Assembly (NCBI GenBank): GCA_022827885.1
Contig: JAJEIP010000003.1
Span: 1 to 64,000, forward strand
DNA from: Candidatus Poribacteria bacterium
Lineage (GTDB): Bacteria > Poribacteria > WGA-4E > WGA-3G
DNA: 64,000 nt
Direction of reading: 5' to 3'
Below, piece by piece: positions 5,890-29,275 of this stretch; position 1 is the stretch's first letter; every line of letters starts with the position of its first letter. The position numbers and the translations under genes were made by a program. Under the pieces are notes generated by a model. The model was not told the origin of the DNA and did no database searches. It saw nothing but the letters and a program-made list of their open reading frames with translations.

Positions 5890-7548
5890 CTAAAAAAATT
5901 GCTGTGCAACCAACAACTTGCGGAGATTTCCTATTCCCCATCTATAAGATATTCCGAATACACCCACAAGGAGGATTACCAACCCAACAAATACGACGAA
6001 ACTTCCGGTATACCACGCTATGACCACAGCGAGAACAAGTGTCACATCAATAATGAGTGTCACTGTGAACGTTAAAACCCGAAGGATCGGCTTCCGTGTT
6101 TTTGATAGGGTGGTTGTCAATTCTGCCATCCACGATAAAGTCCCAACCGCTGTATTCAAGGCACACGCCGTCGGGAGCGTTAAGAGAGGCGTTAGCATTA
6201 CCGGTATCCACGTATCCTTTGGCATTTGGAGGAGACACACAGCAAACAGAGACCAGAATTCAGCATAAACCAACGCACAGAGAAACGCCGTCAGGAATTT
6301 ACTCGTGAACACCAACCGCGGCGTAACAGGAGCGGCTTTCAGCATCCACCATGTCTTCGCTTCATCTCGAAGACCGTTACAGCTGATACCGAAGGTAATC
6401 AGCATACTATACAGAACTATCTGCACAGTCAGCACCAGTCCAGCGTTCGTATCCGCACTGCCTTCCTGTACGAGTAAAATAGCGATGTGAACCACCAAAA
6501 ACAGCGTGAGCATCGCAATGGCAATTAACCGTCCACTGTGCCGGACGAAAATGAGAAAGTCCTTTAGCATCATAGATCGTATCTTACCACGTCCGAGCGC
6601 AAGCCGCAAGCGTTCCAGATGCGATGCTTGAGAAGCATTGGTGCGCCGCACGGCTTTACGCTTGGAAACTTTCAACTGCCGAATATTTTCCCAACCGCGT
6701 TGATAAATCAATTGCGCAACGAGCGTTGCCATTCCGACAGCGGCGAGACTTCCGCCAACACCGCCCAATGCCCATCTCAACCGGACACCTATTGTGGATT
6801 CAGTCACCCAACTCAACAGCAGTCTTCCAATCCACTCGTGTGGATACCACGCAGCAGTCGTATCCGTTGTTCTCTCGGAAGCCCAATCGAGCAACAATTG
6901 CTTTAGGTGGATCGGCTCAAACTCGAAAAACAGTGTTAACGATAACAGGAAACCCACCGCTACGCCGATTGCAGTGCCGAGGACCTTGAGTGTTGCGAGA
7001 AACCATCCAGACGAAAAGAAACGCGCAATCACCATCACACTGATGGTGACATAACTCGCAATCATTAAGAGAAGACACACGCACACTGGAAATAGAACTG
7101 CGTAAAAATGCCACGGTAATTCAAATATCAGACCGAACGCTACCCACGGAGGTCCCAAAAAACAGAGGATACTCAGAAAGCGCGTGAGCGTGAGATGAAT
7201 GAACTTATACCCGAAAATTGCGAGCGGTTGAACGGGTGCAGCGTGTAACAATGCCGTGTCCGGTGCTTCATATAGACTCTTCAGTGAACTCTCCATTAAT
7301 TCCTTGGCAACGACAATAATCCCGAAGAGCATGAACCCATTAATCACACCCAGCAGAAGCCTCGGCTCTGCCTCAGTGCGTCGCAAATGCGCGAAGAGGG
7401 AATTTCCTAACACCGAGAGGGCAACGATGAAGATGAAATACCCGACACCCTTTAAAGCGACTTTTCGCCACGTCTCGCCACCACGGCTCAGTCCATTTGA
7501 CCACCCTTGCAAATCCGCTCTCAGCAGAATTATCACATCTCTCAACAT
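5890..7548 (-). CDS. ABC exporter permease subunit
   Basis: The 552-residue membrane protein has about a dozen hydrophobic segments in two blocks around a basic cytoplasmic loop (QLKVSKRKAVRRTN). This resembles the putative ABC-exporter permease family, not the shorter ABC-2 type. An upstream in-frame extension (MSFLRKVKLK from 7578) is encoded entirely by the terminus of a dispersed repeat, and the identical peptide precedes LpxI, so the ATG at 7548 (MLRDVIILLRADL) is the likely start. The ATPase gene upstream is separated only by that 256-bp repeat. The cargo is unknown. Confidence 0.8.
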   Translation of the reverse strand: MLRDVIILLRADLQGWSNGLSRGGETWRKVALKGVGYFIFIVALSVLGNSLFAHLRRTEAEPRLLLGVINGFMLFGIIVVAKELMESSLKSLYEAPDTALLHAAPVQPLAIFGYKFIHLTLTRFLSILCFLGPPWVAFGLIFELPWHFYAVLFPVCVCLLLMIASYVTISVMVIARFFSSGWFLATLKVLGTAIGVAVGFLLSLTLFFEFEPIHLKQLLLDWASERTTDTTAAWYPHEWIGRLLLSWVTESTIGVRLRWALGGVGGSLAAVGMATLVAQLIYQRGWENIRQLKVSKRKAVRRTNASQASHLERLRLALGRGKIRSMMLKDFLIFVRHSGRLIAIAMLTLFLVVHIAILLVQEGSADTNAGLVLTVQIVLYSMLITFGISCNGLRDEAKTWWMLKAAPVTPRLVFTSKFLTAFLCALVYAEFWSLFAVCLLQMPKDTWIPVMLTPLLTLPTACALNTAVGTLSWMAELTTTLSKTRKPILRVLTFTVTLIIDVTLVLAVVIAWYTGSFVVFVGLVILLVGVFGISYRWGIGNLRKLLVAQQFF

Positions 7549-7804
7549 TTTTAATTTTACCTTGCGGAGAAACGACAAACGTTAGAACTTTGACGGGCGT
7601 TGCTCAAATCCGTTCTCCATTTCATTACGAACTCCGCGCTTTCGTTTCCTTAAGACAGCAGCCTGCAACAATACGCAGAAATACCCTATCAAAACCCCAA
7701 GCAAAAACACGCAGGGTTTTTGATAGGGTGTTTCCACTAGGTCTACGGAAAGGAACGTCAAACTTGAAATCCGCCTAACCGAACCGCAAGGTATAATTAA
7801 AAAT
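7548..7804. repeat. Gene-boundary palindromic repeat, copy A (full length)
   Basis: The left end (from 7548) reads TTTTTAATTTTACCTTGCGG and the right end (7784-7804) is its inverse, CCGCAAGGTATAATTAAAAA. The left end directly abuts the permease ATG (minus strand) and places CAAGG upstream of it. The right end contains the TAA stop (7797-7799, minus strand) of the ABC ATPase gene. The interior holds the 15-base core CTCCATTTCATTACG (7615-7629) and a strong inverted repeat, ACCCTATCAAAA-CCC (7683-7697) with GGGTTTTTGATAGGGT (7714-7729). Confidence 0.85.
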
Positions 7805-8555
7805 CCGATGTAAGATCGAGAAAAATATCCTCAAGGGTCTCCGTCCCACCCTGACCGGCATCGACGGGTCGTCCGTGGTCCCCCTGCCTTTCCTGCTGCA
7901 ACTCCGCAAGAGTCCCGACAGCAATAAGGTGTCCCTTACTGATAATACCGACTCTATCGCAAATACGTTCGGCAATTTCAAGAATGTGTGTCGTCATAAA
8001 CACAGTGGAGCCCCGCTCACAACGTTCGCGCAAGAGTTCCCTGACAGTCCGGGCACTCCTCGGATCCAAGCCACTGGTCGGTTCATCAAGGAAAAGAATC
8101 TGCGGGTGATGCACAAGGACCGAGATGAGCAGAATTTTCTTCTGCATGCCGTAGGAATATCCCTTGATTTGATCGTCAGCAGCCTCGGTCAGCTCGAGTT
8201 GCTCCAGTAGCACGTCCATCTCATTTTCGGCTTGCTCCGGCGGCACTTCATACAAATCCGCTATCATCCGGACAAACTGTCTACCGCTCAATGCTTCGTA
8301 AAGTTGCGGCGTATCGGGCATCAGTCCGAGAATCGCCTTTGCCTGTAAACTCTGTTTCTGAATGTCAAAACCGCCGAGCGTTGCAGTGCCAGATGTCGGG
8401 CGGAGTAAGCCCGTGAGCATATTGATTGTCGTCGTCTTCCCGGCGCCATTCGGTCCAAGGAACCCGAATATTTCACCGGCATCTACCTCAAGTGTTAATG
8501 CATCTACAGCACACAATTTACCGAAATATTTCGTTAAACTTAAGGTTTTAATCAT
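7797..8555 (-). CDS. ABC transporter ATP-binding protein
   Basis: This 252-residue ATPase has Walker A GPNGAGKTT (34-42), a signature region YSYGMQKK in place of LSGGQ, Walker B LFLDEPTSGLDP and the switch His in MTTHILE. The degenerate signature and the overall pattern fit DrrA/CcmA-type exporters of the ABC-2 group. Its start overlaps the last four bases of the PspA-like gene (ATGA), and its TAA stop is formed by a repeat end. It pairs with the permease at 5890-7548. Confidence 0.92.
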   Translation of the reverse strand: MIKTLSLTKYFGKLCAVDALTLEVDAGEIFGFLGPNGAGKTTTINMLTGLLRPTSGTATLGGFDIQKQSLQAKAILGLMPDTPQLYEALSGRQFVRMIADLYEVPPEQAENEMDVLLEQLELTEAADDQIKGYSYGMQKKILLISVLVHHPQILFLDEPTSGLDPRSARTVRELLRERCERGSTVFMTTHILEIAERICDRVGIISKGHLIAVGTLAELQQERQGDHGRPVDAGQGGTETLEDIFLDLTSDF

Positions 8556-9217
8556 TTGCGATTACTGCCTAAGACATCACTTTTAAGTTCTGCGAGCACT
8601 CGGTCAATGTTAGAATCATCTGCGTTTTTTGTCGCATCCGTGGCATCGCGGCGATTTCGGTTTTCCCAAATTTCTGCCTTCTCTTCGGCTATTTTCAATT
8701 TGTGTTCAGCCCGCGCGAAAGCCGTGGAGAGCGCATTTTCCGCTGTCGCGATTAATTTATAGAGTTCCGAGCGGGTCTCCGCTTGTTTCTGACGGTAGGA
8801 TAGGGTTTCAGCGTGCCCCGCTGCGCTTCGGAATTGCTGATAAAATTCGTGAAGTGCTGTTTTGAGGGTCGTTACGATTGCTGCCTGCGCAGCAATTTGA
8901 CGTTTATAACCGTCTGCGAGGTTCAAATGGTGTTGCCTGCGGCGTTGCGCTTCCCTTGCGCGTGTTGTGTCCTGATCCTGTAAAGCAGCGTCAACCTTTT
9001 TACCCCATACGTTTGCTGTATCAATAGCCTCCTGATAGGCGCGTTTGAGTGTCTGTTCATCTACCATCGCTATGGCTACCAGATCTTTTGCCTCATCAAG
9101 TCGCACTTTCATGTCAACAATGGCTGTATCCAGCCGCGATTCGGCACCCTCCAGTGCTTCCAGAAATTGGTTTATAGTCTCTCGAATCTCTTCTGAAATC
9201 TCCCTAAGCCTTTTCAT
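8552..9217 (-). CDS. PspA/IM30-like coiled-coil protein
   Basis: The 221-residue, almost wholly helical, charged protein has the layout of PspA/IM30/Vipp1: an N-terminal helix with alternating Ile/Leu and acid residues, then long coiled coils (LDEAKDLVAIAMVDEQTLKRAY; RQIAAQAAIVTTLKTALHEFY). Such proteins form ESCRT-III-like assemblies on stressed membranes. Four ATGs occur near the 5' end (MEAMMMK). GGAGG at 9226-9230 lies at good distance only from the last (9217), so that start is preferred. The gene leads the operon with the ABC exporter, which may reflect envelope-stress control. Identity is weaker than the fold prediction. Confidence 0.7.
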   Translation of the reverse strand: MKRLREISEEIRETINQFLEALEGAESRLDTAIVDMKVRLDEAKDLVAIAMVDEQTLKRAYQEAIDTANVWGKKVDAALQDQDTTRAREAQRRRQHHLNLADGYKRQIAAQAAIVTTLKTALHEFYQQFRSAAGHAETLSYRQKQAETRSELYKLIATAENALSTAFARAEHKLKIAEEKAEIWENRNRRDATDATKNADDSNIDRVLAELKSDVLGSNRK

Positions 9218-9238
9218 CATCATCGCCTCCATCGTTCC

Positions 9239-9266
9239 ATTATATCCAGTTTGCCGAGAAAATCAA
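9239..9266 (-). promoter_or_regulatory. Sigma70-type promoter of the PspA-ABC exporter operon
   Basis: On the minus strand TTGATT (9261-9266) and a perfect TATAAT (9239-9244) are 16 bases apart. Transcription would begin near 9232, only about 15 bases before the preferred ATG at 9217, so the leader is very short and consists mainly of the Shine-Dalgarno. Confidence 0.6.
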
Positions 9267-9414
9267 GCGGAAACTTTTATCTTTATGAAAATCTAACCCC
9301 TCTGTGCCTATCGCCATAATGTAGCCGTCACTCTTATTAGAAACACTGGGTTGTAAAAAGATAGTCAAAGAAACAATGTTTGACTTTTGGACGGAACGAG
9401 ACACTCAGATACCG

Positions 9415-10296
9415 CTATTTTATCCGAGGCTCGCACAATGCTGTGTAATTAGCATTGACGAGTTCGACATCATAAAGCGCCATTCTATCCATGATGAGAC
9501 GGATTGCGGGAATATTATTATCGATTAAAATCGAGGCGCGATTGTGAAGTGCTGCAGACTCACCGAGAGTGCCGCTGCCCGCAAAAAAATCTAAAAGGGT
9601 ATCGCCGGGTGAAGAATGCACCTTGACGATACGGTTAAGGATTCCGAGCGGTTTTTGGGTCGGATAACCAGTCTTTTCACTCCCATTGGTACTGACGATC
9701 GTATGCCACCAGACATCGGTCGGCGTTTTACCGCGTGCTGCCTTTGCTTTTCCGACCAACCCGGGTGCCATATACGGAATTCTGTCCATCTCATCGAAAT
9801 TGAAGGTGTAGCGCTCCGGCGTTTTGGCATACCACAAGATGTTATCGTGTTTCGCAGGCCATCTCGACTTGGGCCTCCCACCGTAATCGTAAGCCCAAAT
9901 AATCTCATTGACGAAAGCTTCACGTCCGAAAATCTCATCAAGCATCACCTTACAATAGTGCACTTCGCGATAATCGATATGGAGGAAAAAACTACCGTGC
10001 GGATGAAGCGCACGATACGCCTCTTCAAACCGAGGTTGCAAAAACTGCAAATAGGCATCCGAACTCTCAAACTTATCGGTGTAATGCGTAGTCTTGCCTT
10101 TGCGGGTTCGGTATGTTCTTCCTTGGAAGCCGACCCGATCGCCCTCGGTATCCGGCTCAACTTGGATCTCCGTCCGCTGTTGAAGTTTTCCCGTGTTAAA
10201 CGGCGGATCAATATAAATCAAGTTGACGCTTTCATCAGGAACATACTTCTGAAGAATTTCAAGATTATCGCCGTAATAAAGTTGATGCTTAGACAT
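9415..10296 (-). CDS. Orphan DNA methyltransferase (amino-methylating, beta-type motif order)
   Basis: The 293-residue protein has the catalytic motif IV DPPF (30-33, in LIYIDPPFNTGK) ahead of the S-adenosylmethionine motif I FAGSGT (about 238-243), the order of beta-group N6-adenine or N4-cytosine methyltransferases. The context TQKPLGILNRIV is the conserved motif X region. The start is set at ATG 10296 (MSKHQLYYGDN); the upstream extension is low in similarity. No restriction endonuclease or specificity gene is near, so it may be an orphan (regulatory) methylase. The target sequence cannot be predicted. Confidence 0.88.
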   Translation of the reverse strand: MSKHQLYYGDNLEILQKYVPDESVNLIYIDPPFNTGKLQQRTEIQVEPDTEGDRVGFQGRTYRTRKGKTTHYTDKFESSDAYLQFLQPRFEEAYRALHPHGSFFLHIDYREVHYCKVMLDEIFGREAFVNEIIWAYDYGGRPKSRWPAKHDNILWYAKTPERYTFNFDEMDRIPYMAPGLVGKAKAARGKTPTDVWWHTIVSTNGSEKTGYPTQKPLGILNRIVKVHSSPGDTLLDFFAGSGTLGESAALHNRASILIDNNIPAIRLIMDRMALYDVELVNANYTALCEPRIK

Positions 10297-10481
10297 TCGA
10301 TTTCCTGTTCTGTATACAATAGGGTGTGAGCAATCGTCTCTCTGCAAGAGGCAAAAAGGAATCAATTTCAGTTTTTAATATCGCTTGCGATTTCCCTTCT
10401 CTTTTCCGCAGCAAAATTATACCAGTATTATGGCAATTTATCAAGTTGCTGTATGCTATGTTTAGGCACATGAGATTTTTC

Positions 10482-10510
10482 TTGACGCAACAAAATATTT
10501 CGTGTAAAAT
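10482..10510 (+). promoter_or_regulatory. Sigma70-type promoter of the ruvX-mltG-lpx operon
   Basis: TTGACG (10482-10487) and TAAAAT (10505-10510) are 17 bases apart. The start near 10517 leaves a leader of about 135 bases to the ruvX ATG at 10652. This is the only clear promoter in the 355-base gap between the divergent methyltransferase and ruvX genes. Confidence 0.7.
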
Positions 10511-10651
10511 TCTAAGAGCGGTATTGTGAGACTCGCTGAAATCTGGGAATGGAAATTCTTTCTCGGTATTATGGGCTATCTGACTGCCACCTTCTTTAGA
10601 TTCGGGTCGCTTCTAATTTTTTGTTTCTTTGCACAGGAGTTTCGTTTAAAA

Positions 10652-11098
10652 ATGGAAATCTTACTCGGATTAGATGTCGGTGATACACGGATCGGGGTTG
10701 CGCTCAGCGACGCTCTCGGTGTTGCGGCACATCCACTGTGCACGCTTACCCGAAAGAATCGGCGGGTTGATTTAATTGCGATCTCGGACCTGGTTTCTAT
10801 CCATAAGGTGGAATGTATCGTGATCGGCTTGCCCATCTCTCTTGACGGCTCCATCGGGACGCAAGCGAAGAAGATCCAGAAATTTGCACAACGTTTGGAG
10901 CAGGTCATTGACATTCCGATCAAATTTCAGGATGAACGCTTTACAACCGCTGAAGCAGAAGATATTTTGCGTGAACTTAACAAAGACACAAAAACAGAAA
11001 AAGAACTTATCGATGAGGTGGCAGCGGTAATTATTCTTACAGACTATTTGAATAGCGAGCGGGAGATTTCTAACGATGTCCAGAGCCCCATCGTTTAA
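10652..11098 (+). CDS. ruvX: RuvX/YqgF pre-16S rRNA nuclease
   Basis: The 148-residue RNase H-fold protein has the family landmarks GLDVGDTRIGVALSD at the N-terminus (catalytic Asp), VIGLPISLDGS, DERFTTAEAE (catalytic Glu region) and the C-terminal IDEVAAVIILTDYL (catalytic Asp). The family matures the 5' end of 16S rRNA. An open frame extends upstream to 10526, but AGGAG at 10635-10639 and the conserved start MEILLGLDVG fix ATG 10652. It overlaps mltG by 23 bases, so the two are translationally coupled. Confidence 0.93.
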   Translation: MEILLGLDVGDTRIGVALSDALGVAAHPLCTLTRKNRRVDLIAISDLVSIHKVECIVIGLPISLDGSIGTQAKKIQKFAQRLEQVIDIPIKFQDERFTTAEAEDILRELNKDTKTEKELIDEVAAVIILTDYLNSEREISNDVQSPIV

Positions 11099-12125
11099 AA
11101 TTCTCTCAAGAACACGAAAGATTAAGATAGGCATACTGACGCTCTGCTGTCTTAGTGCTCTCTGTCTCATTATCCTGCTGATTGGGGTATCCCTGACGCG
11201 CCCCCCTACATCGTCAGAAGAAGTTGTCAATTTTGACGTGCCAGTGGGGAGTAGTTCCCGGACAATCGCAAAGCGATTAATTGCGCAAAAGTTGATACGC
11301 AGCGAACATGTCTTTCGTTTAGCTGTCCGATATAGAGGGACCGGTAAACGCCTACAAGCTGGCACCTATGTGTTACGGCGGAATATGGCACTGTGGGACC
11401 TCCTCGATGAATTTGAAAAGGGGCAGGTTACACTCGTTAGCTGGACAGTGCCAGAGGGTTTAACAACAGCTGCCATTGCTGAACTTTGGGAAACGAGCGG
11501 CTTTGGCACAGCGGCGGCATTTCGGAAAGCCGCCGAATCCCAGCATTTGTTGGAGCGGTATGGGCTTACAGACAAAACTGTGGAAGGCTATCTTTTTCCG
11601 AATACATACAAATTCGCAAAAGGCACAACAACTGAGAAAGTTGTTGAGATGATGCTCGATGAATTCAAACAGCAGTGGACAGAAAAATTTGAGGAGGAGG
11701 CACAAAATTTAGGGCGTACCCGTCACGAAATCGTAACGCTTGCTTCTGTCATTGAAAAGGAAGCACAATCCGATCTCGAACGTCCCCGTATTTCAAGTGT
11801 CTTTCATAACCGACTTACACGAAAGTGGAAACTTCAGGCAGATCCAACAGTGCTTTATGCCTTAGGGAACCCCAAAAGTCCCTTAACGAAAGCCGATCTA
11901 CAGGTGGAGTCGCCTTATAACACCTATAAATACAAGGGTTTACCCCCTGGTCCCATTGCGAATCCGGGGCTTGATTCAATTGTAGCCGCACTGCGCCCTG
12001 AAAAAACAGATTATCTCTACTTCGTGGCGATAGGCGAAGGAAAGCACCACTTTTCAAAGACGCTTTCAGAACACAATAGAATGATACGAAAAATGCGACG
12101 TGCTTCTCGTAAGCACGTTCCGTAG
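11076..12125 (+). CDS. mltG: Endolytic murein transglycosylase MltG
   Basis: The 349-residue protein has one N-terminal membrane anchor (about 18-42), a LysM-like region (FDVPVGSSSRTIAKRLI), and the YceG/MltG catalytic domain with VEGYLFPNTYKF, the catalytic Glu in LASVIEKEAQ, LQADPTVLYALG and YNTYKYKGLPPGPIANPG. MltG cuts nascent glycan strands at the inner membrane and sets their length. Pairing of ruvX with mltG is common in bacteria. Length and motifs are intact. Confidence 0.95.
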   Translation: MSRAPSFKILSRTRKIKIGILTLCCLSALCLIILLIGVSLTRPPTSSEEVVNFDVPVGSSSRTIAKRLIAQKLIRSEHVFRLAVRYRGTGKRLQAGTYVLRRNMALWDLLDEFEKGQVTLVSWTVPEGLTTAAIAELWETSGFGTAAAFRKAAESQHLLERYGLTDKTVEGYLFPNTYKFAKGTTTEKVVEMMLDEFKQQWTEKFEEEAQNLGRTRHEIVTLASVIEKEAQSDLERPRISSVFHNRLTRKWKLQADPTVLYALGNPKSPLTKADLQVESPYNTYKYKGLPPGPIANPGLDSIVAALRPEKTDYLYFVAIGEGKHHFSKTLSEHNRMIRKMRRASRKHVP

Positions 12126-12278
12126 CGATAACAAAACAGCGGTCGGTTCTCCGTCGGCAGTCACTCGGATGACAGGGTGGACCGGTGAAAAAATGGGGAC
12201 TCAAGCCGAAGACCCCTCCATCTTCCATCTGAAAACGCAAGCCCCAGCGGGGCGAAATGTGTATAGGAATAAAAGCGA
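12126..12278 (+). other. Intergenic spacer with GC hairpin between mltG and lpxC/fabZ
   Basis: A perfect short hairpin GCCCC-AGC-GGGGC lies at 12241-12253, within a stretch that resembles dispersed intergenic repeats of this genome. No T-run follows, so it is not a strong terminator, and the operon may continue into the lpx genes. No clear promoter was found here. Confidence 0.5.
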
Positions 12279-13565: not shown

Positions 13566-13614
13566 TTTATGGTTGTCAACTGACTACTGATAACTACTAA
13601 ACGGAGGGACATCT

Positions 13615-14436
13615 GTGCTAGAAACCAACATTCATCCTACGGCTATTATCTCTCCAAAAGCAATATTGGAAGAAGGGGTTAAGATTGGCCCCTACAGTCT
13701 TATCGGTGAAGAGGTCCATATAGGGCGCGGTACCGTGATTGGTCCCCACGTTCAGATTGAAAAATGGACAACTATTGGCGAAGAATGCAAAATCTTCTTC
13801 GGGGCTACCATCGGTAACGAATCGAAAGATCTGAAGTACGGGGGGTGGCGGAGTTATGTGAAAATCGGGAACCGCAATATACTCCGCGAATACGTCTCGA
13901 TCTCCAGGTCATCTTTTGAAGAGGAAGCGACGATTGTTGGGGACAACAATCTGCTGATGAATTGGGTTAACCTCGCACACGATGCTATCGTCGGTAATCG
14001 AATCATCATGGCAAACTTTGTCTCGCTTGCCGGGCATGTCGTGATTGAAGATGATGTTCGACTCGGAGCGCATGCGGCACTGCACCAATACGTGCGTGTA
14101 GGCAAGATGGCGATGGCAGGCGGTTTCTCAAAGATCGTGCAGGATATTCCACCCTTTGCTCTATCCGCCGGACAACCTGCACGTGTCCGAGACCTCAACC
14201 GCATCGGTATCCGAACCTCACGGATTAACCCTTTATCACAACTCACACCTGAAACACTCGCGGTGCTAAAGAAGGCGTTCCGCATTTTGTTCCGATCAGG
14301 ACTCCCCCTCAAGCATGCCGTCACCAGAGTCAGAGAAACACTTGAACCAACGCCGGAAGTTGAATATTTACTCAAATTTATAGAAACCTCCAAACGTGGT
14401 ATAGGGTTTAGTCAACCGAACCGGACGCTTTTTTAA
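13615..14436 (+). CDS. lpxA: UDP-N-acetylglucosamine acyltransferase LpxA
   Basis: The 273-residue left-handed beta-helix acyltransferase catalyses the first step of lipid A synthesis. The diagnostic block GDNNLLMNWVNLAHDAIVGN contains the catalytic His of the AHD motif, followed by LAGHVVIEDDVRLG, AALHQYVRVG and a helical C-terminal domain. The start is GTG at 13615, preceded by ACGGAGGGA. Its TAA stop is contributed by the left end of gene-boundary repeat copy B. It sits between lpxC/fabZ and lpxI, the usual company. Confidence 0.95.
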   Translation: MLETNIHPTAIISPKAILEEGVKIGPYSLIGEEVHIGRGTVIGPHVQIEKWTTIGEECKIFFGATIGNESKDLKYGGWRSYVKIGNRNILREYVSISRSSFEEEATIVGDNNLLMNWVNLAHDAIVGNRIIMANFVSLAGHVVIEDDVRLGAHAALHQYVRVGKMAMAGGFSKIVQDIPPFALSAGQPARVRDLNRIGIRTSRINPLSQLTPETLAVLKKAFRILFRSGLPLKHAVTRVRETLEPTPEVEYLLKFIETSKRGIGFSQPNRTLF

Positions 14437-14500
14437 TGTTCCTTGCACTTCGGTTAGGTGGGTTCCAAGTGTGTCGTTTCTCCGCAAGGTAAAATTAAAA
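14429..14500. repeat. Gene-boundary palindromic repeat, copy B (short form)
   Basis: The left end TTTTTTAATGTTCCTTGC includes the lpxA stop TAA (14434-14436). The right end CCGCAAGGTAAAATTAAAAA stops one base before the lpxI ATG at 14501 and provides the CAAGG ribosome binding site. Only about 72 bp separate the ends, and the 15-base core seen in longer copies is missing. The repeat thus fills the whole space between the two genes. Confidence 0.85.
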
Positions 14501-15304
14501 ATGGAAAAATTGGGTATTATTGCAGGCGCAGGTGAACTCCCCGTGCTATTAGCACGTGCCGCTGTTGCCCATGAACGACATCCCGTTATCATCCAAATCA
14601 CCAAGTCTGATGCGCAACGCTTTGCCGGCATCGAATGTGAACTCCATACGTATGGCGTCGGCCAGATTCAACGGATCGCCCGAACCCTTCTCAATTCAGG
14701 CGTGAAAGAGGTTGTGATCCTCGGGAAAGTCGAAAAAAACATTCTCCTTCGTCCCTTTCAAATTGATACGACTACGATTAAAATTCTGGTCCAGAACCGG
14801 CGCGAAAAACCTTCCGTAATCGTCAACGCGGCACTGAACTATCTCGAATCTGCCGGACTTACCATCCTCACCCAAGATCAGTATCTCCAACACCTGCTTC
14901 CAGAGCCCAGCGTTTTAACAACTCGACAACCGACCGCGAGCCAATGGACAGATATTGAATTCGGCATTAGCGTCGCCCGCCAAATAGCAAACATGGATAT
15001 TGGGCAAACGGTTGTGGTTAAGAATCAGATCGTCCTTGCTATGGAAGCCATCGAAGGAACGGACGCGACTATTCAGAGGGGCGGAAATTTGGGAAAGCAG
15101 GGAAGCGTTGTTGCGAAAGCCGCAGCCGAGAACCACGATTTTCGGATTGATGTGCCGACGGTGGGACTGCAAACACTTGAGGTGCTGCATGACGTTAAAG
15201 CGAGTGTGTTAGCAGTGGAAGCGCGCCGCACTTTTATGATAGATGCCGATGCGCTGATTCAGCAAGCAGACCGCCGGAAAATCGCAATCGTTGCTGTAGA
15301 GTAA
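14501..15304 (+). CDS. lpxI: UDP-2,3-diacylglucosamine pyrophosphatase LpxI
   Basis: The 267-residue protein (DUF1009/LpxI) hydrolyses UDP-2,3-diacylglucosamine to lipid X, replacing LpxH. Family features are the start MEKLGIIAGAGELPVLLA, the segment VVILGKVEKN, IEFGISVARQIANMDIGQTV and the C-terminal GLQTLEVLHDVKASVLAVEA. The frame is open upstream to a GTG at 14471, but those ten codons (MSFLRKVKLK) come from the repeat end and are identical to those before the ABC permease, so ATG 14501 is chosen. Confidence 0.93.
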   Translation: MEKLGIIAGAGELPVLLARAAVAHERHPVIIQITKSDAQRFAGIECELHTYGVGQIQRIARTLLNSGVKEVVILGKVEKNILLRPFQIDTTTIKILVQNRREKPSVIVNAALNYLESAGLTILTQDQYLQHLLPEPSVLTTRQPTASQWTDIEFGISVARQIANMDIGQTVVVKNQIVLAMEAIEGTDATIQRGGNLGKQGSVVAKAAAENHDFRIDVPTVGLQTLEVLHDVKASVLAVEARRTFMIDADALIQQADRRKIAIVAVE

Positions 15305-15314
15305 CAAAAAAAAA

Positions 15315-15339
15315 CGGAGGTAGTAAATAACCACCTCCG
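15315..15339 (-). terminator. Rho-independent terminator of the selenoprotein gene
   Basis: The stem CGGAGGT (15315-15321) pairs with ACCTCCG (15333-15339). In the minus-strand transcript the hairpin is followed directly by nine T residues (15306-15314), a classic intrinsic terminator, 18 bases after the selenoprotein stop. In the plus direction no T-run follows. Confidence 0.8.
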
Positions 15340-15357
15340 CCTTTCCAAAGACGCTGG

Positions 15358-15591: not shown

Positions 15592-15658
15592 GGATTTTGT
15601 TCCTCCTCAATTAATTTTGACATTGCCTGTCGCCATAAATTCAATCGTCTATCTTAAA

Positions 15659-15687
15659 ATTTTACAACAAACAGTGGAAAATTGCAA
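15659..15687 (-). promoter_or_regulatory. Putative promoter of the selenoprotein gene
   Basis: On the minus strand TTGCAA (15682-15687) and TAAAAT (15659-15664) are 17 bases apart, giving a start near 15652 and a leader of about 60 bases. The gap 15592-15915 also holds a dispersed repeat (15785-15868) and, in the plus direction, an extended -10 motif TGCTATATT (15733-15741) that could serve the TonB-like gene. Confidence 0.45.
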
Positions 15688-15784: not shown

Positions 15785-15868
15785 TAAAGTCTGTAAAGTT
15801 GTTTCCAAGGAGTAGGATACCTCAATAGTTTCAGGCACACCGCAACTTTAGCACACTTGCAAACTTTC
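15785..15868. repeat. AAAGT-rich dispersed intergenic repeat, copy 1
   Basis: Bases 15844-15868 are the exact reverse complement of 52,914-52,938 (25 of 25 bases). The other end, CTAAAGTCTGTAAAGTT near 15,785, matches the inverse of the segment around 52,960-52,978. A rearranged relative lies at 46,678-46,755. It sits 48 bases before the TonB-like gene. Confidence 0.75.
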
Positions 15869-15915
15869 AGGCGTGGAACTCACCGATGCGAAGTTAGCAC
15901 ATAGGTGTTTAAATT

Positions 15916-18023: not shown

Positions 18024-18704
18024 TTAGTAGGTGTTGTTATCCCAAAAGACTTTGAAGGTTCGGAGGAGTATTTTAAAATCGTTCCAGAAAGATAGATTCT
18101 CAATGTATTCCAAATCAACAGGGATGCCATCTCGGATCGCCCCTTGTCGACGTGGACTCAGCTGCCAGAGACCTGTCATCCCGGGACGGACGAGGTGACG
18201 CTGATTTTCCCGAGGTTCATAATGTTCGGCAAGAAAAGGCATTTCTGGACGCGGCCCGACGAGGCTCATTTCGCCCTTTAGCACATTGAAAAGTTGGGGC
18301 AACTCATCCAAACTCGTTTTACGGAGCCATCTACCGACCGGTGTAATGCGTTTGTCATCAATCGCGCCAGGTTTCTCGGAATAGGACGGCGTATCCACAT
18401 GGAGACTCCGAAACTTGTGGATGACAAACAAGTCGTTGTTTAGACCAACCCGCTCGTGTGAGAAAAAGACGGTACCGCGTGAGGTGAGTTTAATGAGAAT
18501 GGCAATCAGTGCCATTAGAGGAGCAAAGATAATGATAAGGAAAAATGCGGCAATAGCGTCAAACAAATGTTTGCCACGCGTTGCGTAGAAAGAGGAGAGT
18601 CGTTCCACAAGAGTCCCTGTTTTTGATATTTCTGGCGAAGCTTGCAAGCCCGTTCCGCTTGCATCTTTTCCTATCTGGTCTATGTTTCTTGATAGGAATG
18701 GCAT
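18024..18704 (-). CDS. Polyprenyl-phosphate sugar-phosphate transferase (initiating transferase)
   Basis: This 226-residue PF02397-type enzyme would start polysaccharide assembly by moving a sugar-1-phosphate onto undecaprenyl phosphate at the inner membrane. It has one N-terminal membrane helix (HLFDAIAAFFLIIIFAPLMAL), the KFRSLHVD motif, LRKTSLDELPQLFNVLKGEMS with the catalytic Asp-Glu, and LVGPRPE, then a C-terminal RPGMTGLWQLS. It resembles the short single-helix members (PglC/WecP/PssY size class), not the long WbaP type. It sits 2 bases downstream of a glycosyltransferase. Confidence 0.93.
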   Translation of the reverse strand: MPFLSRNIDQIGKDASGTGLQASPEISKTGTLVERLSSFYATRGKHLFDAIAAFFLIIIFAPLMALIAILIKLTSRGTVFFSHERVGLNNDLFVIHKFRSLHVDTPSYSEKPGAIDDKRITPVGRWLRKTSLDELPQLFNVLKGEMSLVGPRPEMPFLAEHYEPRENQRHLVRPGMTGLWQLSPRRQGAIRDGIPVDLEYIENLSFWNDFKILLRTFKVFWDNNTY

Positions 18705-19834: not shown

Positions 19835-19962
19835 TTTCCTTATATATTATACCCGTTTTGGACGCGAAAGTCCAATTTGTTTTCACGATCAGAAACTCAC
19901 AGACAATGCTTGTATTCTTTGATGATTGGAACCGGACAAATCTTCATTTTTTTCTTTTTTTA

Positions 19963-21699: not shown

Positions 21700-21723
21700 A
21701 TTTTTTAGTAGTTAAGGGTCCTG

Positions 21724-23340: not shown

Positions 23341-23393
23341 AGGTCGCTCCAGTCCTCAATTGGTTGAATCTTTTCGCAGTATGTGAATCATTC

Positions 23394-23927
23394 CTATGGA
23401 AATACTATAATTGCTTTTTGATCTCTCATAGACACTCTGAATAGCGCAAGGAGTTCCTGTTCACTCTTTTCAGGGAATTCAAAAGATAGACGGAGATATT
23501 GAATGATGATTTCATCAAAGGCACTGATGTACTGAAAGTAAAACATTTCAAGCGTACCCGCTTTCAGTTTTTCAGCAAAGGCACCTTGCAGATTCTCAAG
23601 TCTATTCAACACTGCAGCATTTTCAAGGTTCTCCTGGCGATATATCTCTACCAAATCGACCCAAAGTCCCTTTCTAAAACCGAGTTCTTCTCTAAAGATG
23701 TCATCAGAAGCAGTGAATACAGTAGAAAAATCGCCTGTCTCTTCGGCTTTGTGTTGCACCGCTGCCCGTCTTTCATTGACGCCTCTCATTGCCGCTTGTG
23801 CTTTTTCTAAAGCGATTTGTGAAGGGCCGGTCATTTCCACAACTGACTGTTTTATTATTCGTTCGCACCCGATAAGTGATACAGATGCCCAAAGTATTAA
23901 CACAATCAGCAGCGTCAGTAATCTCAT
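23394..23927 (-). CDS. Predicted lipoprotein of unknown function
   Basis: The 177-residue protein starts with a lipoprotein signal (lipobox LIGC, Cys21) and continues as a largely helical, charged domain (ALEKAQAAMRGVNERRAAVQHKAEE; LENLQGAFAEKLKAG). I see no catalytic motif. It is transcribed between a sulfotransferase and the sulfatase with short gaps, so it is probably part of the polysaccharide locus, but no function can be assigned. Confidence 0.7.
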   Translation of the reverse strand: MRLLTLLIVLILWASVSLIGCERIIKQSVVEMTGPSQIALEKAQAAMRGVNERRAAVQHKAEETGDFSTVFTASDDIFREELGFRKGLWVDLVEIYRQENLENAAVLNRLENLQGAFAEKLKAGTLEMFYFQYISAFDEIIIQYLRLSFEFPEKSEQELLALFRVSMRDQKAIIVFP

Positions 23928-24004
23928 TCTAACTCCTTTTCAAGTAAACCGTGAACTGTTACGGTTCACTGATTTTGACAGCCTATTTCTGTCAAAAAAT
24001 TCGC

Positions 24005-25009
24005 CTAACTATTATACCTTAACTGTCCCATCATGTCATGGAAAACAGGCGCGATTTTCGCATGAACATCAAATGGCTTTCTGGCGGGTACTGGACGCAA
24101 GGTCTGCCGAGCATACTCGTAGAACGTGCTGTCTGTTGGCAATTCACAGAAGTCGCATAACGCGGTAAGCGTTTTGTCCGGCTCTAATGTCAAATCCTCG
24201 AAACGGACGAGATGGATATAATCGGGTGTTGCTTGCATGAGACGGATCCCCTCCTGCATGGTGACAATCCATTCTATGGCGGCTCTGTCGAGATGTCGCT
24301 CAAAGTGTTTAATGTCATCGGTTTCCAGTTCAGCGAAAACCGGATCTGTTTTAACGAGTTGCTCAACTAAGAGCCTCCACTTTCGGTCATCCACACCCCA
24401 CCAATCGTGTTTTTTACTATCGACCTGAACACCGAGTCGCTTCGACCATGTTGCAATTGAATGACACGTATCCCATCCATTGCGGATGAGGAAGATGAAA
24501 CGCGCCTCAGGAAACAGCGCACGAACGAAATCTACCCTGAAGATCAGTTCCGGGTACTTATCAACAAGACGTTGCGAGCGAGTTGCCGTCAAATAAGCAC
24601 CGAACATCTGCGAAGCGCGTTGACGCATTTCGTGTGTCGCATCTTCAGCGGTGAGTCGATATTTTGCCTCCGCTTGACTGTAGTTCCCAATAACATCTTC
24701 ATGCGGATGGATGAGGTGCCACATAGCCTTTGGTTCATTGAGATAGCCGATTTCTCTGTGCATGGACAGCACAATACCGAGTATCGTCGTACCACTGCGC
24801 CCGGTTCCCAAAATGAAGATCGGTTTTTCAACAGATTTATATCTGTTATTGTTCGTAGCGAACCTTTTCAAAAGAGAAAAGACGAGCGGATTTATCCAGC
24901 GACCCTTTGTGGTTACAGGACGCCCCTCAAAGAACGCGTAACTCATGAGACGCGTTATTACTTTCGTCGGACGCGTTTTGATGTAATTCGGATCTATTTG
25001 TGCAATCAT
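24005..25009 (-). CDS. Sulfotransferase (type 3-like, GRSGTT P-loop)
   Basis: The 334-residue enzyme has the PAPS 5'-phosphosulfate loop FILGTGRSGTTILGIVLSMH, a 3'-phosphate region (FIFLIRNGWDTCHSIATWSK) and LVRFEDLTLEPDKTLTALCDF near the C-terminus, the arrangement of carbohydrate or tyrosyl-type sulfotransferases. It overlaps the next gene upstream by four bases (ATGA) and is therefore coupled to a second sulfotransferase of the same kind. The acceptor is unknown; context suggests a surface glycan. Confidence 0.88.
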   Translation of the reverse strand: MIAQIDPNYIKTRPTKVITRLMSYAFFEGRPVTTKGRWINPLVFSLLKRFATNNNRYKSVEKPIFILGTGRSGTTILGIVLSMHREIGYLNEPKAMWHLIHPHEDVIGNYSQAEAKYRLTAEDATHEMRQRASQMFGAYLTATRSQRLVDKYPELIFRVDFVRALFPEARFIFLIRNGWDTCHSIATWSKRLGVQVDSKKHDWWGVDDRKWRLLVEQLVKTDPVFAELETDDIKHFERHLDRAAIEWIVTMQEGIRLMQATPDYIHLVRFEDLTLEPDKTLTALCDFCELPTDSTFYEYARQTLRPVPARKPFDVHAKIAPVFHDMMGQLRYNS

Positions 25010-26013
25010 ATACGTCTTTTTAGCGTTTGACGGATATTTTTCATCCGGTCAAGATTAAAGAGAAATGCGCCACCTAATTTCACTGGAAACGTCAACAGAT
25101 GAAGTATCAAACTCGCGACATTAGGTTGTATTGAGACGGGACTATAGTTATGTTTCTTCATAAGGGCTGCATTTATCTTTTCGTTCAAGTAGATTTCAGC
25201 CGAACTGAGTCCCCCCTCAGTTGTGTCGCTGTGCCAACTGTGTGCCCGATGCGGATTGATACCGAGTTGCTCGGGCTGGTCCTCCGCAACAGAAGATCCG
25301 ACTTGTGGGACTTGAAGCATAGCATCTGTGTAAGTAATACCAACAAAATCACAGAGATGTTTGACAGTTGCTTTAGGGTGCGCGAGGAGTTCCTCAAAAT
25401 AGATGGAGGTAACTCGCTCGTGTTGTAAAAACTGCTCAGCAGCGGTGACAGCGGTTCGCCAGATGTAACTAATGGTTATTGGGTGATAGTTCACCCAATC
25501 GCGGAACATTTCTTTGATTGGCAGATCGCTCCCACCGAGAAACCGGCGTTTCCACTTCCTTTTTTGAGATAATAGCACATCACGCGGGTCACGGATCATA
25601 TTGATAATTCGCGCGTTTGGATACAACTCAAGGATATCGGCAATATAAAAAACATTACGCGGTGTTTGGTCACAAGGGATCGTCCCACCATTCGCAGCGG
25701 CAACATAATAGAGAAAAACTTCAAAGAGTGCAGCTTGCGTTTCAGGGTAAGGGGTTAGCCGCCCAAGAAACGCCTGTGCCTCGCTTAAGAAACGGCGTGG
25801 ATTTCCATGTGTGCGATATCCCTCTCGCTGAATACAATGTAACTGCGAAGCCAGTTCTTCTATCTCCTCCTTACGCGATGCTGATGAAAACGGAGGCGCA
25901 CATAATTGACCAAAGAAGTGAAGCTCACCAAAAGTATAAACACTTGGATGCTTCCCTAAAATCCGTCCCATCATTGTTGTGCCGCTGCGACTATTCCCTA
26001 CAACAAATACCAT
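25006..26013 (-). CDS. Sulfotransferase (type 3-like, SRSGTT P-loop)
   Basis: The 335-residue enzyme begins with the P-loop itself (MVFVVGNSRSGTTMMGRILGKHP), then has the 3'-phosphate motif IINMIRDPRDVLLSQKRKWK and the conserved IYFEELLAHPKATVKHLCDFVG. It is related to the gene that follows but clearly divergent, so the pair may sulfate different positions. A GC-poor repeat-like spacer (26,014-26,142) separates it from the glycosidase gene upstream. Confidence 0.88.
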   Translation of the reverse strand: MVFVVGNSRSGTTMMGRILGKHPSVYTFGELHFFGQLCAPPFSSASRKEEIEELASQLHCIQREGYRTHGNPRRFLSEAQAFLGRLTPYPETQAALFEVFLYYVAAANGGTIPCDQTPRNVFYIADILELYPNARIINMIRDPRDVLLSQKRKWKRRFLGGSDLPIKEMFRDWVNYHPITISYIWRTAVTAAEQFLQHERVTSIYFEELLAHPKATVKHLCDFVGITYTDAMLQVPQVGSSVAEDQPEQLGINPHRAHSWHSDTTEGGLSSAEIYLNEKINAALMKKHNYSPVSIQPNVASLILHLLTFPVKLGGAFLFNLDRMKNIRQTLKRRI

Positions 26014-26142
26014 TTTTTTAAAGGGTTCTCGGTTCGGATTTTTTTCAAAAATCCTTTCGGTCTTCGGTTCTGGGTTAAGAGGTTTTCGTCGAACGAAACG
26101 CTTTTGTTACCGACAACCGATAACCGAAAACTAATCTGCTAC

Positions 26143-27699
26143 CTACCTCTTTAGTTTGAGAATTCCGAAACTGTTTTTTGGAATGATAAGTTCTGTTGAT
26201 TTCCCATGCCATTCTTGAATATTCACCTCAATTTCGCCGGAGCCCTCCATTTCGGCGTTGCCTCCGTTTGTTGCGTTGAGCCTCTCATCAGCAACATAAC
26301 GGTAGTCAATGTCGCTTTTGTAACGCTTACCGTCAATTAGGAGCTGCGGTTCGTATTGCTCACCTGTCCGATTGCTAACGAGGATTGTCAGATGTTCCGC
26401 AGCAGTCCCACCGATGGCTTGCGCCTGAATACCGGGCATCTGTTTACCCGTATATTCTATGGCTCCTTCAAGAACGGGCTGATTTTGAATTGAAAGGCGG
26501 AACTGTGTGTCAGCCTTAGCGAACGCTTCACCGATGAGTTGAAAAGCCGGATAAACAGTCCGTCGAATGGTGTTACCGAAATCGGACTCTGGTTCCCCCC
26601 CATATTTCCAAAATGTATTGGGCGTTGGGGGTGTTACGTGTGAAAACACAGGGAACCCCTTACCCGGACCGGCAAGCACATGAAAGTTCGCTTGTGTGAC
26701 ATTCGGAATCGCTAACATCTTTAGAAAAAAATCACCCACATACATCGCATGAAGTTGCGTATTCGCGACCCGGTTTGCGGGGTTAGCGATGTTCCACTCA
26801 GTTATCCACATCTCCTTATTTGGAAACAGTTTTTCATAATAGTCAATTGCCTCTGTGACATCAAAGTGAATCCATCCCATGAGGTAGCCTCGCATCTCCT
26901 CTATCTCTTTTTTTCGGATAGCTTTGTAGGCATAGACATGGACGGTATAAGCATCGTAAAAACTATTATCGGCTGCGAGGCCTTCATCCCATTTCCGTTG
27001 TTGTTTCTTGACGAACCAGCCCTCTTTGTGAAAGGCGATCGGGGTAGCACACACGGATACCTTTATATCAGGGTTGACGGCTTTCATTGCTGCAGCATGC
27101 TTCTTGGCTTCTGTTATGTAAGTTCCAACCGTCGGGTATTTGTTGAGGTAATGCGGTAGATAGTATTCGTTCCCGAGTTCCCAATGCGTAATCTGATATC
27201 CTTTGTCTTTCGCGTAGCGGACCCATGCCGCACTCTCCTCTGGGCTGCCTGTCCATAAGTTCACAACAACAATGGGTGTTATATTCAACGAGTTACATAA
27301 CCGCATAAAATCGTCGAAAAGGATTTTACCGTTTCGCAGCCTTTGAAGTTTGACGTAATTTCTCTTCATCCGCCCATTAAGCTTCGTACTCAGCGTCGAT
27401 ACCATTTCATCCTCAAAAAAGCCGCCCGGTTCCCAATGATAGAAATTCCCAACCGCCCCACCAGGAAATCGGAGTGTCTTTGGCGCCAGTTCCTTCGTTA
27501 AGGCAGCAAAATCGTCATCAAGGTAACCGTAATCGCCGTTTATCATGTTTGTATTGAAGCCGTAAAGTGCTTGACGGAGCGGTTGTCCGTTACGCGTATC
27601 AATTTCCAAAGAGAGTGTATTAGGCAGCGATTTTTGGGTTTGACAACCGATTACCAGAAACAGTGTCATCATCCCCAGCAACTTGTAAACCTTGGTCAT
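26143..27699 (-). CDS. Lipoprotein glycoside hydrolase, clan GH-A (arabinofuranosidase/xylosidase-like)
   Basis: The 518-residue lipoprotein (lipobox Cys19, FLVIGC) has an (alpha/beta)8-barrel with LRFPGGAVGNFYHW, an acid/base Glu in THWELGNEYY (about 178) and a nucleophile Glu in MWITEWN (about 301), the spacing of GH51/GH39-like retaining enzymes. A C-terminal beta domain follows. It may cut or edit the polysaccharide made by the locus, or scavenge glycans. The start overlaps the stop of the O-antigen ligase gene by four bases, so both are co-translated. Confidence 0.8.
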   Translation of the reverse strand: MTKVYKLLGMMTLFLVIGCQTQKSLPNTLSLEIDTRNGQPLRQALYGFNTNMINGDYGYLDDDFAALTKELAPKTLRFPGGAVGNFYHWEPGGFFEDEMVSTLSTKLNGRMKRNYVKLQRLRNGKILFDDFMRLCNSLNITPIVVVNLWTGSPEESAAWVRYAKDKGYQITHWELGNEYYLPHYLNKYPTVGTYITEAKKHAAAMKAVNPDIKVSVCATPIAFHKEGWFVKKQQRKWDEGLAADNSFYDAYTVHVYAYKAIRKKEIEEMRGYLMGWIHFDVTEAIDYYEKLFPNKEMWITEWNIANPANRVANTQLHAMYVGDFFLKMLAIPNVTQANFHVLAGPGKGFPVFSHVTPPTPNTFWKYGGEPESDFGNTIRRTVYPAFQLIGEAFAKADTQFRLSIQNQPVLEGAIEYTGKQMPGIQAQAIGGTAAEHLTILVSNRTGEQYEPQLLIDGKRYKSDIDYRYVADERLNATNGGNAEMEGSGEIEVNIQEWHGKSTELIIPKNSFGILKLKR

Positions 27700-29075
27700 A
27701 ATGTTACCCTCAGCGGTCTATAGGTTGGGAGCGATCTATCGCTGGCGAACATAAGTCCAGCGCAGAGCCAGAAGTAAAATCCATAACCTCGATATTCAAG
27801 GGTTCGATTAAAGAAAAGCAAGAATACAGTAACAGCGACAAGACAAAGCACAATGATCGCAATCCGTTGGGTCACGTAGGAAGCAGCGGGTCCCTCGCCT
27901 ACAACAGATGATGTCCCGACAGCTCTTTTGTAAAGACTGAGTGCGGCGCGAAAGAGTTGGTAAAATATCAAAGCGAAAAAACCCAATCCCAATATGCCAT
28001 AGAAACAGAGGATAGCCACCCAATAAACATCTTTGAACCCGCTTTTACTGAGTATCTTGAGAAGGTACGAGCGTTTGCTCATATTGAGTCCTTCTATCGT
28101 GGTGTTCTGGTCGGCTCCATACCCCAAGATCGGTTTGTTTACGAGAACTGTTGGAACATTTCCGATCAATGCCCCGAGTCTCTGTTTTTGTGCAACACGG
28201 ACATAAGACCCAGAAAATACGCCTGTTACATTGCCGACAAGCCCAACTCTCGCTTTACGGGGATTTATGTATTCAAGGTTGAACGGGTTTGCCACTGCCA
28301 GTAGGATTCCGAAGATGAGAACAGTCGCTACCGCTAAGCGAAGGGTCTTTTTCCACCCGTGGTGGAAGTAGAACCACGCTCCCCCTGCGAGAAGGGCAGA
28401 GAAGGTTGCAGCGCGCGAATACGAACGCGCGATAAAGAAAAAGAGTATAAGTGCACCGAGCAGGTTCAGGTATTCAAGTCGCCGAATACGGGAGAGATAG
28501 ACGACGAGAACGAGAATCATAAAGATACCATAAATCACAGTATCGCCCAAAGTCCCATAGACACTACCAATCTCTCTACCCAGTTCGAGTAGCCGGTATT
28601 CCTTCACGAAGCCGCCTATAGTGAGTGTCGCCTCCCGCGGAAGAAAAAAATCAAATGCGGGTGTCCCCCCCAACCATTGAATGAGACCCGCGGTAATCTG
28701 AAAAATACCGACACCCAGAATTATGCGTAACAGGATCGTAATACGCCTTTCGGAGAGGGCAGAGTTCGCCACCACATAAAAAAGTACAATATAGCGCGCA
28801 AAGGGCCGAATGTTGTAAAGACTGCCTATCAAGGGGGATCCGTTTATGAGTATTGACAACAAGACGACGCTATAAAAGCCTATAATCGGTAAATCAATCG
28901 CTGTTTTGACGAAGGGAATGCCCCGATGCAGTTTATGGATGACGAGTTTTCCAAAGGCAACATAGATAAGGATTTCACTCAAAAACCTTAAATAAGAATA
29001 GACAGTATCACTAACGGGCAAAAACTTTAGTATAAACTCTTCAAAGGCGATGTATCCCGTCAAAAAATAAATCAT
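27696..29075 (-). CDS. O-antigen ligase/polymerase-family membrane protein
   Basis: The 459-residue protein has about twelve hydrophobic segments and one larger periplasmic loop (IEGLNMSKRSYLLKILSKSG and upstream GYGADQNTT) as in WaaL/Wzy proteins. The loop holds conserved Arg and Gly residues, and the pattern fits PF04932. It would polymerise or ligate lipid-linked glycan at the periplasmic side. The ATG at 29,075 directly abuts the end of gene-boundary repeat copy C, which supplies CAAGG as binding site. Confidence 0.85.
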   Translation of the reverse strand: MIYFLTGYIAFEEFILKFLPVSDTVYSYLRFLSEILIYVAFGKLVIHKLHRGIPFVKTAIDLPIIGFYSVVLLSILINGSPLIGSLYNIRPFARYIVLFYVVANSALSERRITILLRIILGVGIFQITAGLIQWLGGTPAFDFFLPREATLTIGGFVKEYRLLELGREIGSVYGTLGDTVIYGIFMILVLVVYLSRIRRLEYLNLLGALILFFFIARSYSRAATFSALLAGGAWFYFHHGWKKTLRLAVATVLIFGILLAVANPFNLEYINPRKARVGLVGNVTGVFSGSYVRVAQKQRLGALIGNVPTVLVNKPILGYGADQNTTIEGLNMSKRSYLLKILSKSGFKDVYWVAILCFYGILGLGFFALIFYQLFRAALSLYKRAVGTSSVVGEGPAASYVTQRIAIIVLCLVAVTVFLLFFNRTLEYRGYGFYFWLCAGLMFASDRSLPTYRPLRVTL

Positions 29076-29275
29076 ATTTTAATTATTCCTTGCGGTTCGG
29101 TCAGGTAGGTTTGACAAATTAAGTGCCTTTCCGTATATCCGTTCTCCATTTCATTACGAACTATGCGCTTGGGTCTGCCCAAGACAGTAGCCTGCAACAA
29201 CGGAGCAGGCGGATTTGAGAAACGCACGTCAAAGTCCAAACGCTTGTTGTTTCCCCGCAAGGTAAAATTAAAAAT
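29076..29275. repeat. Gene-boundary palindromic repeat, copy C (full length)
   Basis: The left end ATTTTAATTATTCCTTGCGG touches the O-antigen ligase ATG. The right end CCGCAAGGTAAAATTAAAAA (29,255-29,274) contains the TAA stop (29,268-29,270, minus strand) of the upstream sulfotransferase. The interior has the core CTCCATTTCATTACG at 29,144-29,158. A small open frame in the gene direction reads RNEMENGYTERH...YLTEPQG, which is the repeat's translated form. The element occupies the entire space between the two genes. Confidence 0.85.

Follow-up and report, generated by a model that had tools for sequence, protein, structure and literature searches.

What kind of DNA can fill the whole space between two genes, so that one of its edges holds the stop codon of the first gene and the other touches the start codon of the second? 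The question is raised by a 64,000-nt stretch of a Candidatus Poribacteria genome (the window), which is part of contig C96 of genome G000 (148 contigs, 5.13 Mb). The source genus comprises uncultured, sponge-associated bacteria. An earlier note on this DNA had described inverted ends that fill three gaps in this manner, and the arrangement was confirmed at 7548, 14429 and 29076. The repeat is reasonably likely to be a genus-restricted, high-copy, mosaic intercistronic cassette resembling a miniature inverted-repeat transposable element (MITE) or a bacterial interspersed mosaic element (BIME), with ends that work as translational stop and start signals.

Repeat ends at stop and start codons

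The 20-base end, TTTTTAATTTTACCTTGCGG, has eight matches in the window (at most three mismatches; Table 1), against 0.02 expected from dinucleotide shuffles. In the first gap, the open reading frame (ORF) of an ABC ATPase (7797-8555, minus strand) has its stop codon at 7797-7799, within the 7784-7803 end, and the ATG of an ABC permease (7548-7546) touches the 7548-7567 end. In the second, the lpxA ORF (13615-14436, plus strand) closes with a TAA at 14434-14436 inside the left end that starts at 14429 (TTTTTTAATGTTCCTTGCAC), which is degenerate and lies outside the eight matches; the lpxI ATG (14501-14503) touches the right end of this 73-bp element. In the third, the stop codon of a sulfotransferase ORF (29268-30194, minus strand) lies inside an end at 29268-29270, and the ATG of an O-antigen-ligase-like gene (29075-29073) touches the 29076 end. 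The gene identities are consistent with Pfam, the Wzy_C match of the ligase being under the curated cut-off. The window LpxI matches 22 Poribacteria loci at 55-97% identity and two Nitrospirae loci at 35%. Single ends had also been noted before the flippase, epimerase and thrC genes. All three are present and that of thrC abuts its ATG, but the flippase and epimerase have no start codon at the border; the epimerase ORF is open into the element at 33621. The degenerate end reported at recD2 was found as a truncated end directly before the ATG.

The end was sought in 40 genomes (the window's own, 23 of the same genus and 16 from other families). G000 contains 374 matches (at most three mismatches), against one for the reversed control. 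The end is present in 22 of the 23 same-genus relatives, with 17 to 495 matches, and G022 has none; counts in the 16 other-family genomes range from 0 to 3, which is the control level. This high copy number and patchy distribution (0 to 495 matches within the genus) is as expected of a MITE. The core CCGCAAGG with an ATG 8-13 nt further on occurs 227 times in G000 (19 in the reversed control) and 11 times in G022 (control 18), and the exact core lies at most 30 nt upstream of 58 candidate ATGs among 893 genes of G000. A lone good copy of the end with its ATG, carrying a single mismatch, was seen in G035, a genome of another family (G035:C5:4930-4952), and may be the result of horizontal transfer.

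Positions relative to genes were counted in 1.22 Mb of G000 (window included) and in portions of G008, G017, G010 and G013, allowing at most four mismatches per end and taking genes as simple longest ORFs, with no trained gene finder. These five genomes gave a set of 225 ends, and further G010 sequence extended it to 257. An ATG at offset -1 or 0 that opens an ORF of at least 300 nt was found at 86 of the 225 ends, and a stop codon at offset 4 or 5 that closes a frame open for at least 300 nt at 34. The same tests at positions shifted by 500, 1000 and -1000 nt gave 1, 0 and 3 starts and 2, 0 and 0 stops, which bears out the preference for gene borders proposed earlier. In the larger set, 93 ends were classed as start, 32 as stop only, 24 as tandem-internal and 108 as other. 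The TAA of the element is the stop codon of an upstream open frame at 37 of the 257 ends, five of which also count as start, and upstream open frames favour the one that ends at this TAA (29 versus 9 and 7). The border ATG opens an ORF of at least 300 nt in 93 cases, of 150-299 nt in three and of less than 150 nt in nine (about five by chance). Because border ATGs without a 150-nt ORF are near the chance level, the border cannot be explained simply as a target sequence specific for ATG. Of the 55 start-abutting ends of G000, 51 belong to co-directional gene pairs, compared with a background of 757 of 971 (Fisher p = 0.006). A second repeat family, with ends such as GGAGGCCATAGTTAAAAA followed directly by ATG, is placed in the same way: nine of its 11 copies stand at an offset of 0 or +1 (shifted control 0). 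Near position 123730 of G000 C64, an end stands directly after what appears by reading to be the 3' end of a tRNA gene (CGAGTCCCTTTCCCGGCA), and the borders may include RNA genes.

In 48 of 73 candidate starts, 12 nt separate GCAAGG from the ATG, and in 10 the distance is 11 nt. The spacers of native AGGAG sites are spread widely, the modal spacer accounting for 41 of 223. As the 16S gene is absent from the window's own assembly, the 16S genes of relatives were used; their 3' regions (G010, G022 and G005) read CCTCCTTTCT, the CCTT of which is complementary to AAGG.

Genes that begin at an end and gaps in relatives

Start-abutting genes with an ORF of at least 700 nt number 47 in the G000 sequence. 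Ten of these, picked for familiar-looking N-termini and not at random, were compared with NCBIfam, and all ten scored above the curated cut-off (AtpA, AtpD, PrfA, MutL, HisF, IlvC, NuoM-type, SecD, ClpB and an SdhB-type subunit). An end occupies the ribosome-binding-site position of atpA, atpD, prfA, secD and lpxI, and in the ATP synthase operon (G000 C33 166880-170286) the atpA start, the atpA stop and the atpD start are all at family ends. Because such genes are expected to be expressed, the end probably serves as a ribosome-binding site, judging from sequence. At two sites in G017 (C112 near 37939 and 41690) the native start has been removed by an element whose border offers no ATG, GTG or TTG; an in-frame ATT stands at or near ribosome-binding-site spacing, possibly likewise at the window epimerase (33600-33742). 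AUU starts or N-terminal extensions through the element are possible at these sites.

Orthologous gaps differ between relatives with and without the repeat, and their stop and start codons differ with them, in the comparison that the earlier note had proposed. At 22 named lpxA-lpxI loci, a CCGCAAGG-type end precedes lpxI in 11 (degenerate in L080), and all 11 have an ATG. A GTG or TTG start was found at L081, L083, L087, L090, L091, L097, L098 and L099, which are without the element; the start codon of L096, also without it, could not be assigned. The C-terminus of the window LpxA is unlike the one found at element-free loci. The ABC gap was compared in 25 genomes. It is a native gap of 57-60 nt in G022, G040, G002, G003 and G019. 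Ends of the CCGCAAGG type touch the ATG in G000, G008, G007 and G018. Other repeat ends touch the ATG in G017, G013 and G010, such that several families alternate in one gap. In G020, TTCTC stands between the end and the ATG. These differing sequences are not those of ordinary conserved operator DNA, the alternative by which the original proposal was to be refuted. The thrC gap likewise has differing arrangements in G008, G017 and G010.

Among 159 comparisons of orthologous gaps, 82 had no copy of the family in the target; in 57 of these the target gap measured 20-699 nt. The gap of the other genome had 18 nt or more without a match in 52 of the 57, which are not 57 independent loci and include gaps shortened by inner anchors; divergence may explain some of the G010 comparisons. 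Stronger are the comparisons within the trio of G000, G008 and G017, where the flanks are mostly 92-98% identical. In G017 C81, about 117 nt of the G000/G008 sequence is missing and an element of about 101 nt stands instead; the missing stretch begins two codons ahead of the native stop and reaches the start codon. At G010 124037 the native gap of G000 is absent. These alignments suggest that relatives with the element usually lack the native gap, as opposed to having it shifted aside, and that the element often replaces the gap. The direction of change appears often to be ambiguous, since loss or gene exchange also seems to occur.

Anatomy of the repeat and other repeats of the window

Inward from the end, a variable arm region leads to a hairpin whose loop is conserved (TCCATTTCATTAC-like). 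The 4-nt arms that flank the loop come in 11 different sequences and pair fully in 43 of 61 copies (shuffles: mean 6.8, maximum 13); in the fuller set of genomes, with 12 arm sequences, 75 of 112 copies do so. Self-templated repair acts on quasi-palindromes, and the arm covariation may come either from selection or from such repair. An effect on mRNA stability, suggested in the earlier note, is hypothetical. Folding energy is barely below that of shuffles (mean z of -0.47 at start ends, -0.78 at stop ends), RNAalifold gave essentially no structure for the ends, and mutual information in the end alignment is chiefly subfamily signal. A strand test of G-U against A-C pairs in the loop-flanking arms gave 2 versus 6 in a small sample, and a second loop search gave 1 of 730.

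Terminal inverted repeats such as define MITEs face each other at 7548/7803 and 29076/29274 and, in degenerate form, at 14429/14501, although facing pairs within 6 kb number only 15 among 137 ends of G000. The inverted pairing of intergenic palindromic units is that of repetitive extragenic palindromes (REPs) and BIMEs, and tandem ends 21 bp apart were also seen. A partner of at least 60 nt was found for 112 of the 137 G000 ends, with a median best identity of 86% when identical tandem neighbours are included.

Table 1. Repeat ends and elements in the window
Feature	Position	Strand	Context
End match, at most 3 mismatches	7548-7567	+	
End match, at most 3 mismatches	7784-7803	-	
End match, at most 3 mismatches	14482-14501	-	
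End match, at most 3 mismatches	29076-29095	+	
End match, at most 3 mismatches	29255-29274	-	
Complete element, 256 bp	7548-7803	-	Between ABC ATPase and ABC permease
Short element, 73 bp	14429-14501	+	Between lpxA and lpxI
Complete element, 199 bp	29076-29274	-	Between sulfotransferase and O-antigen-ligase-like genes
Single end, at most 3 mismatches	32476-32495	+	Upstream of MurJ-type flippase ORF; border without ATG (GTG +10, ATG +13)
Single end, at most 3 mismatches	33621-33640	+	Upstream of epimerase; no long-ORF ATG, GTG or TTG near border
Single end, at most 3 mismatches	54247-54266	+	Touches ATG (54246) of thrC-like PALP gene
Truncated end, AAGGTAAAACTAAAA	52172-52186	-	Directly before recD2 ATG
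Second repeat type, tandem pair, 89-bp spacing	5160-5335	-	End GGAGCAATCGTTAAAAAA touches ATG of gene 4119-5159 (minus strand)
Related second-type repeat, tandem pair (TTTAATTTATTGCTTCTGGGC...)	44746-44934	-	Just upstream of gene 43328-44743 (minus strand)

The window contains other short repeats. GAAAGTTTGCAAGTGTGCTAAAGTT is dispersed at 15844-15868, 46676-46701 and 52913-52938, and in G008 a similar sequence is inserted just past the start codon of the O-antigen-ligase-like gene. Imperfect inverted repeats of type CAACTGACTACTGATAACTACTAAA lie in gene gaps at 13574-13601 and 39645-39672 and represent a further intergenic repeat type. The window had no match in a plasmid collection.

The cassette model, its rivals and known repeats

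Under the cassette model, the repeat is built of hairpin modules that carry nested inserts and have imperfect inverted ends on either side, and it often fills the whole intercistronic gap in operons. Toward a gene start, its outermost 20 bases read CCGCAAGG-(T/A-rich)-AAAAA directly before ATG, and the AAGG could act as a Shine-Dalgarno sequence at fixed spacing; toward a gene end, the same bases read TTTTTAA and provide an in-frame TAA. An element landing between two co-directional genes could terminate the first and initiate the second. Mainly such compatible arrangements would survive, and the original gap DNA, now redundant, would be lost during or soon after the event. A bolder version, which is tentative and may well be wrong, is that the cassette is targeted to the gap and replaces it whole in one event, bringing stop and initiation signals with it, and would thus be an exchangeable operon joint that works without a classical transposase.

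Several observations weigh against the cassette model. The 108 of 257 ends outside the border classes and tandem copies count against the model and the earlier claim of insertion at gene borders without breaking operons; the 51 of 55 start-abutting ends in co-directional pairs agree with that claim. AAGG is a weak Shine-Dalgarno sequence. Start codons are also found at a variant end that lacks it (GCCTTGCGAATAATTAAAAA when read outward): 4 of its 13 copies have an offset of -1 to +1, so AAGG is not required for the geometry; the start side of the G017 C81 element is this variant. Two lpxI loci without the element nevertheless start with ATG (L094 and L101), and in G001 the end in the ABC gap is present with no ATG after it. 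Long-ORF ATGs 12-40 nt past the border are no commoner than in shifted controls. The G008 element at 63438 is, compared with G017, a nearly simple insertion with about a dozen bases changed. The G008 C61 element at 18039 is missing from G000 and G017 but present in the more distant G010, and its absence from the two may therefore reflect loss or gene exchange. Most dispersed copy pairs are 70-80% identical, and one G017 copy has nothing closer in its genome than 85% over 48 nt; recent copy-paste is therefore not supported. By eye, no direct repeat, and so no target duplication, flanks the three window elements, nor was a transposase recognised among the ORFs, judged by eye, of eight of the ten longer facing-end pairs (1.0-5.0 kb) that the 1.22 Mb of G000 contains. 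High copy number and differing gaps suggest that the family is, as proposed, probably mobile on evolutionary time; the part searched yielded neither an enzyme nor a target duplication nor a recent donor.

How the family moves is where the two more serious rivals differ from the cassette model. One holds, somewhat doubtfully, that gaps are exchanged for gaps by short-homology recombination or template switching, a donor gap with A/T-rich edges and an ATG replacing the recipient gap in one step without a transposase. This would account for the loss of native gaps on both sides, the window elements without target duplication and the tandem ends 21 bp apart. It would also explain mosaics with one family on the stop side and another on the start side (G010 124037; the G008/G017 thrC gap), first-type and second-type ends at the same stop in G000 and G017, and the lack of a high-copy long repeat in the sequence read (eight long repeats in 1.22 Mb of G000 and five in 580 kb of G010, from metagenome assemblies, which can lose insertion sequence copies). 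However, the stop-side junctions inspected by eye had no evident homology to the replaced sequence, no donor gap was found for the one element searched, and the family-free G022 has no AAGG-W7-AAAAATG, which makes it probable that recipients offer little native homology. The other, to which we give about the same rather low credence, is an ordinary MITE moved in trans by a transposase and inserted at random, with the borders and the gap loss left to selection and later deletion. Inverted ends, window elements of 73-256 bp, a high copy number that is uneven within the genus and the nearly simple insertion at G008 63438 all agree with it. Random insertion followed by selection should, however, leave many ends 15-60 nt upstream of a kept native ribosome-binding site, and no such excess was seen; the window elements have no target duplication, and the native gap is usually gone even where flank identity is about 92-98%. 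The longer facing-end pairs of the G000 sequence, in eight of ten of which no transposase was recognised by eye, count against it too, and also disfavour a long autonomous parent between facing ends.

Movement by a Y1 transposase of the REP-associated tyrosine transposase (RAYT) type, as in REP/BIME systems, is very unlikely. The paired inverted hairpin units in intergenic DNA resemble such systems, and REPs can provide stop codons, according to the available part of one report (PMC3733652). The four Y1_Tnp loci of G000 (2.5-3.3 kb each) contain no exact family core that would mark a cognate transposase flanked by repeats, and Y1 counts are unrelated to copy number (G022 has five Y1 genes and no ends, G013 no Y1 genes and 318 ends); a Y1/RAYT engine is accordingly disfavoured. 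Equally improbable is an immobile structured RNA leader or operator that regulates many genes. The covarying arms and the operon location would suit it, but folding energies are close to those of shuffles, the named genes are functionally unrelated, and the ABC gap holds unrelated sequences in relatives, the opposite of conservation at the same gene. Rfam covariance models gave no match in the window at the gathering threshold, and a known RNA family was rejected on this ground. Least credible is the view that the ends are merely the host's usual ribosome-binding site, which would make the border positions trivial. Similar A-rich spacers do precede some ATGs where the remainder of the element is missing (such as AAGGAAAATTAGAAAAATG in G008). 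AAGG-W7-AAAAATG, however, occurs 22 times in G000 (control 0), never in G022 and twice in the 16 other-family genomes (reversed control 2), and the other enriched upstream motifs of G000 are AGGAG-type 8-mers. As a general account, a host consensus is refuted by a motif that is at control level outside genomes with the family; this motif closely resembles the truncated end before recD2.

The claim that no described family has this stop-to-start geometry stands, in the literature searched, for its start half. Stop supply is already known: in the available text of the BOX report, this repeat of Streptococcus pneumoniae encodes the stop codon of 36 annotated coding sequences, and expressed BOX ORFs are without good Shine-Dalgarno candidates (PMC3049150). 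BOX is similarly a modular intergenic repeat that supplies stops, but, compared by description, that text reports no ribosome-binding site abutting the next ATG and no gap replacement (PMC3049150). GTAG REPs, as described in the portion available, are also palindromic intergenic units whose termini often give a TAG stop to flanking ORFs; they are 20-40 bp units with a GTAG tag and an associated Y1 transposase (PMC3733652). The poribacterial repeat differs from these in that no Y1 association was found, its stop is TAA and the start-side geometry is added. ERIC/RU-1, Correia/NEMIS, RUP, RPE and YPAL are likewise inverted-repeat, non-autonomous and mainly intergenic in the part of the MITE review available, where some bacterial MITEs are co-transcribed and some fused with ORFs, RUP inserts at TA and matches an insertion sequence, and YPAL makes target duplications (PMC2229807). 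The review text mentions neither "start codon" nor "Shine-Dalgarno" (PMC2229807), and a literature search, which mostly did not extend to subscription papers, gave no report of start-side geometry, gap replacement or these poribacterial repeats. The start half and the gap replacement are thus without precedent in the literature searched, as far as its available text goes. The repeat is best called a small interspersed repeat, MITE/BIME-like in looks and not a proven member of either class.

If the cassette model is true, a few per cent of the genes, including those for ATP synthase subunits, release factor 1 and SecD, would be translated from ribosome-binding sites supplied by a repeat. Translational punctuation in operons could then be a selfish or exchangeable module, and these genomes would offer a natural set of swapped intercistronic regions in which to ask what such regions must contain.

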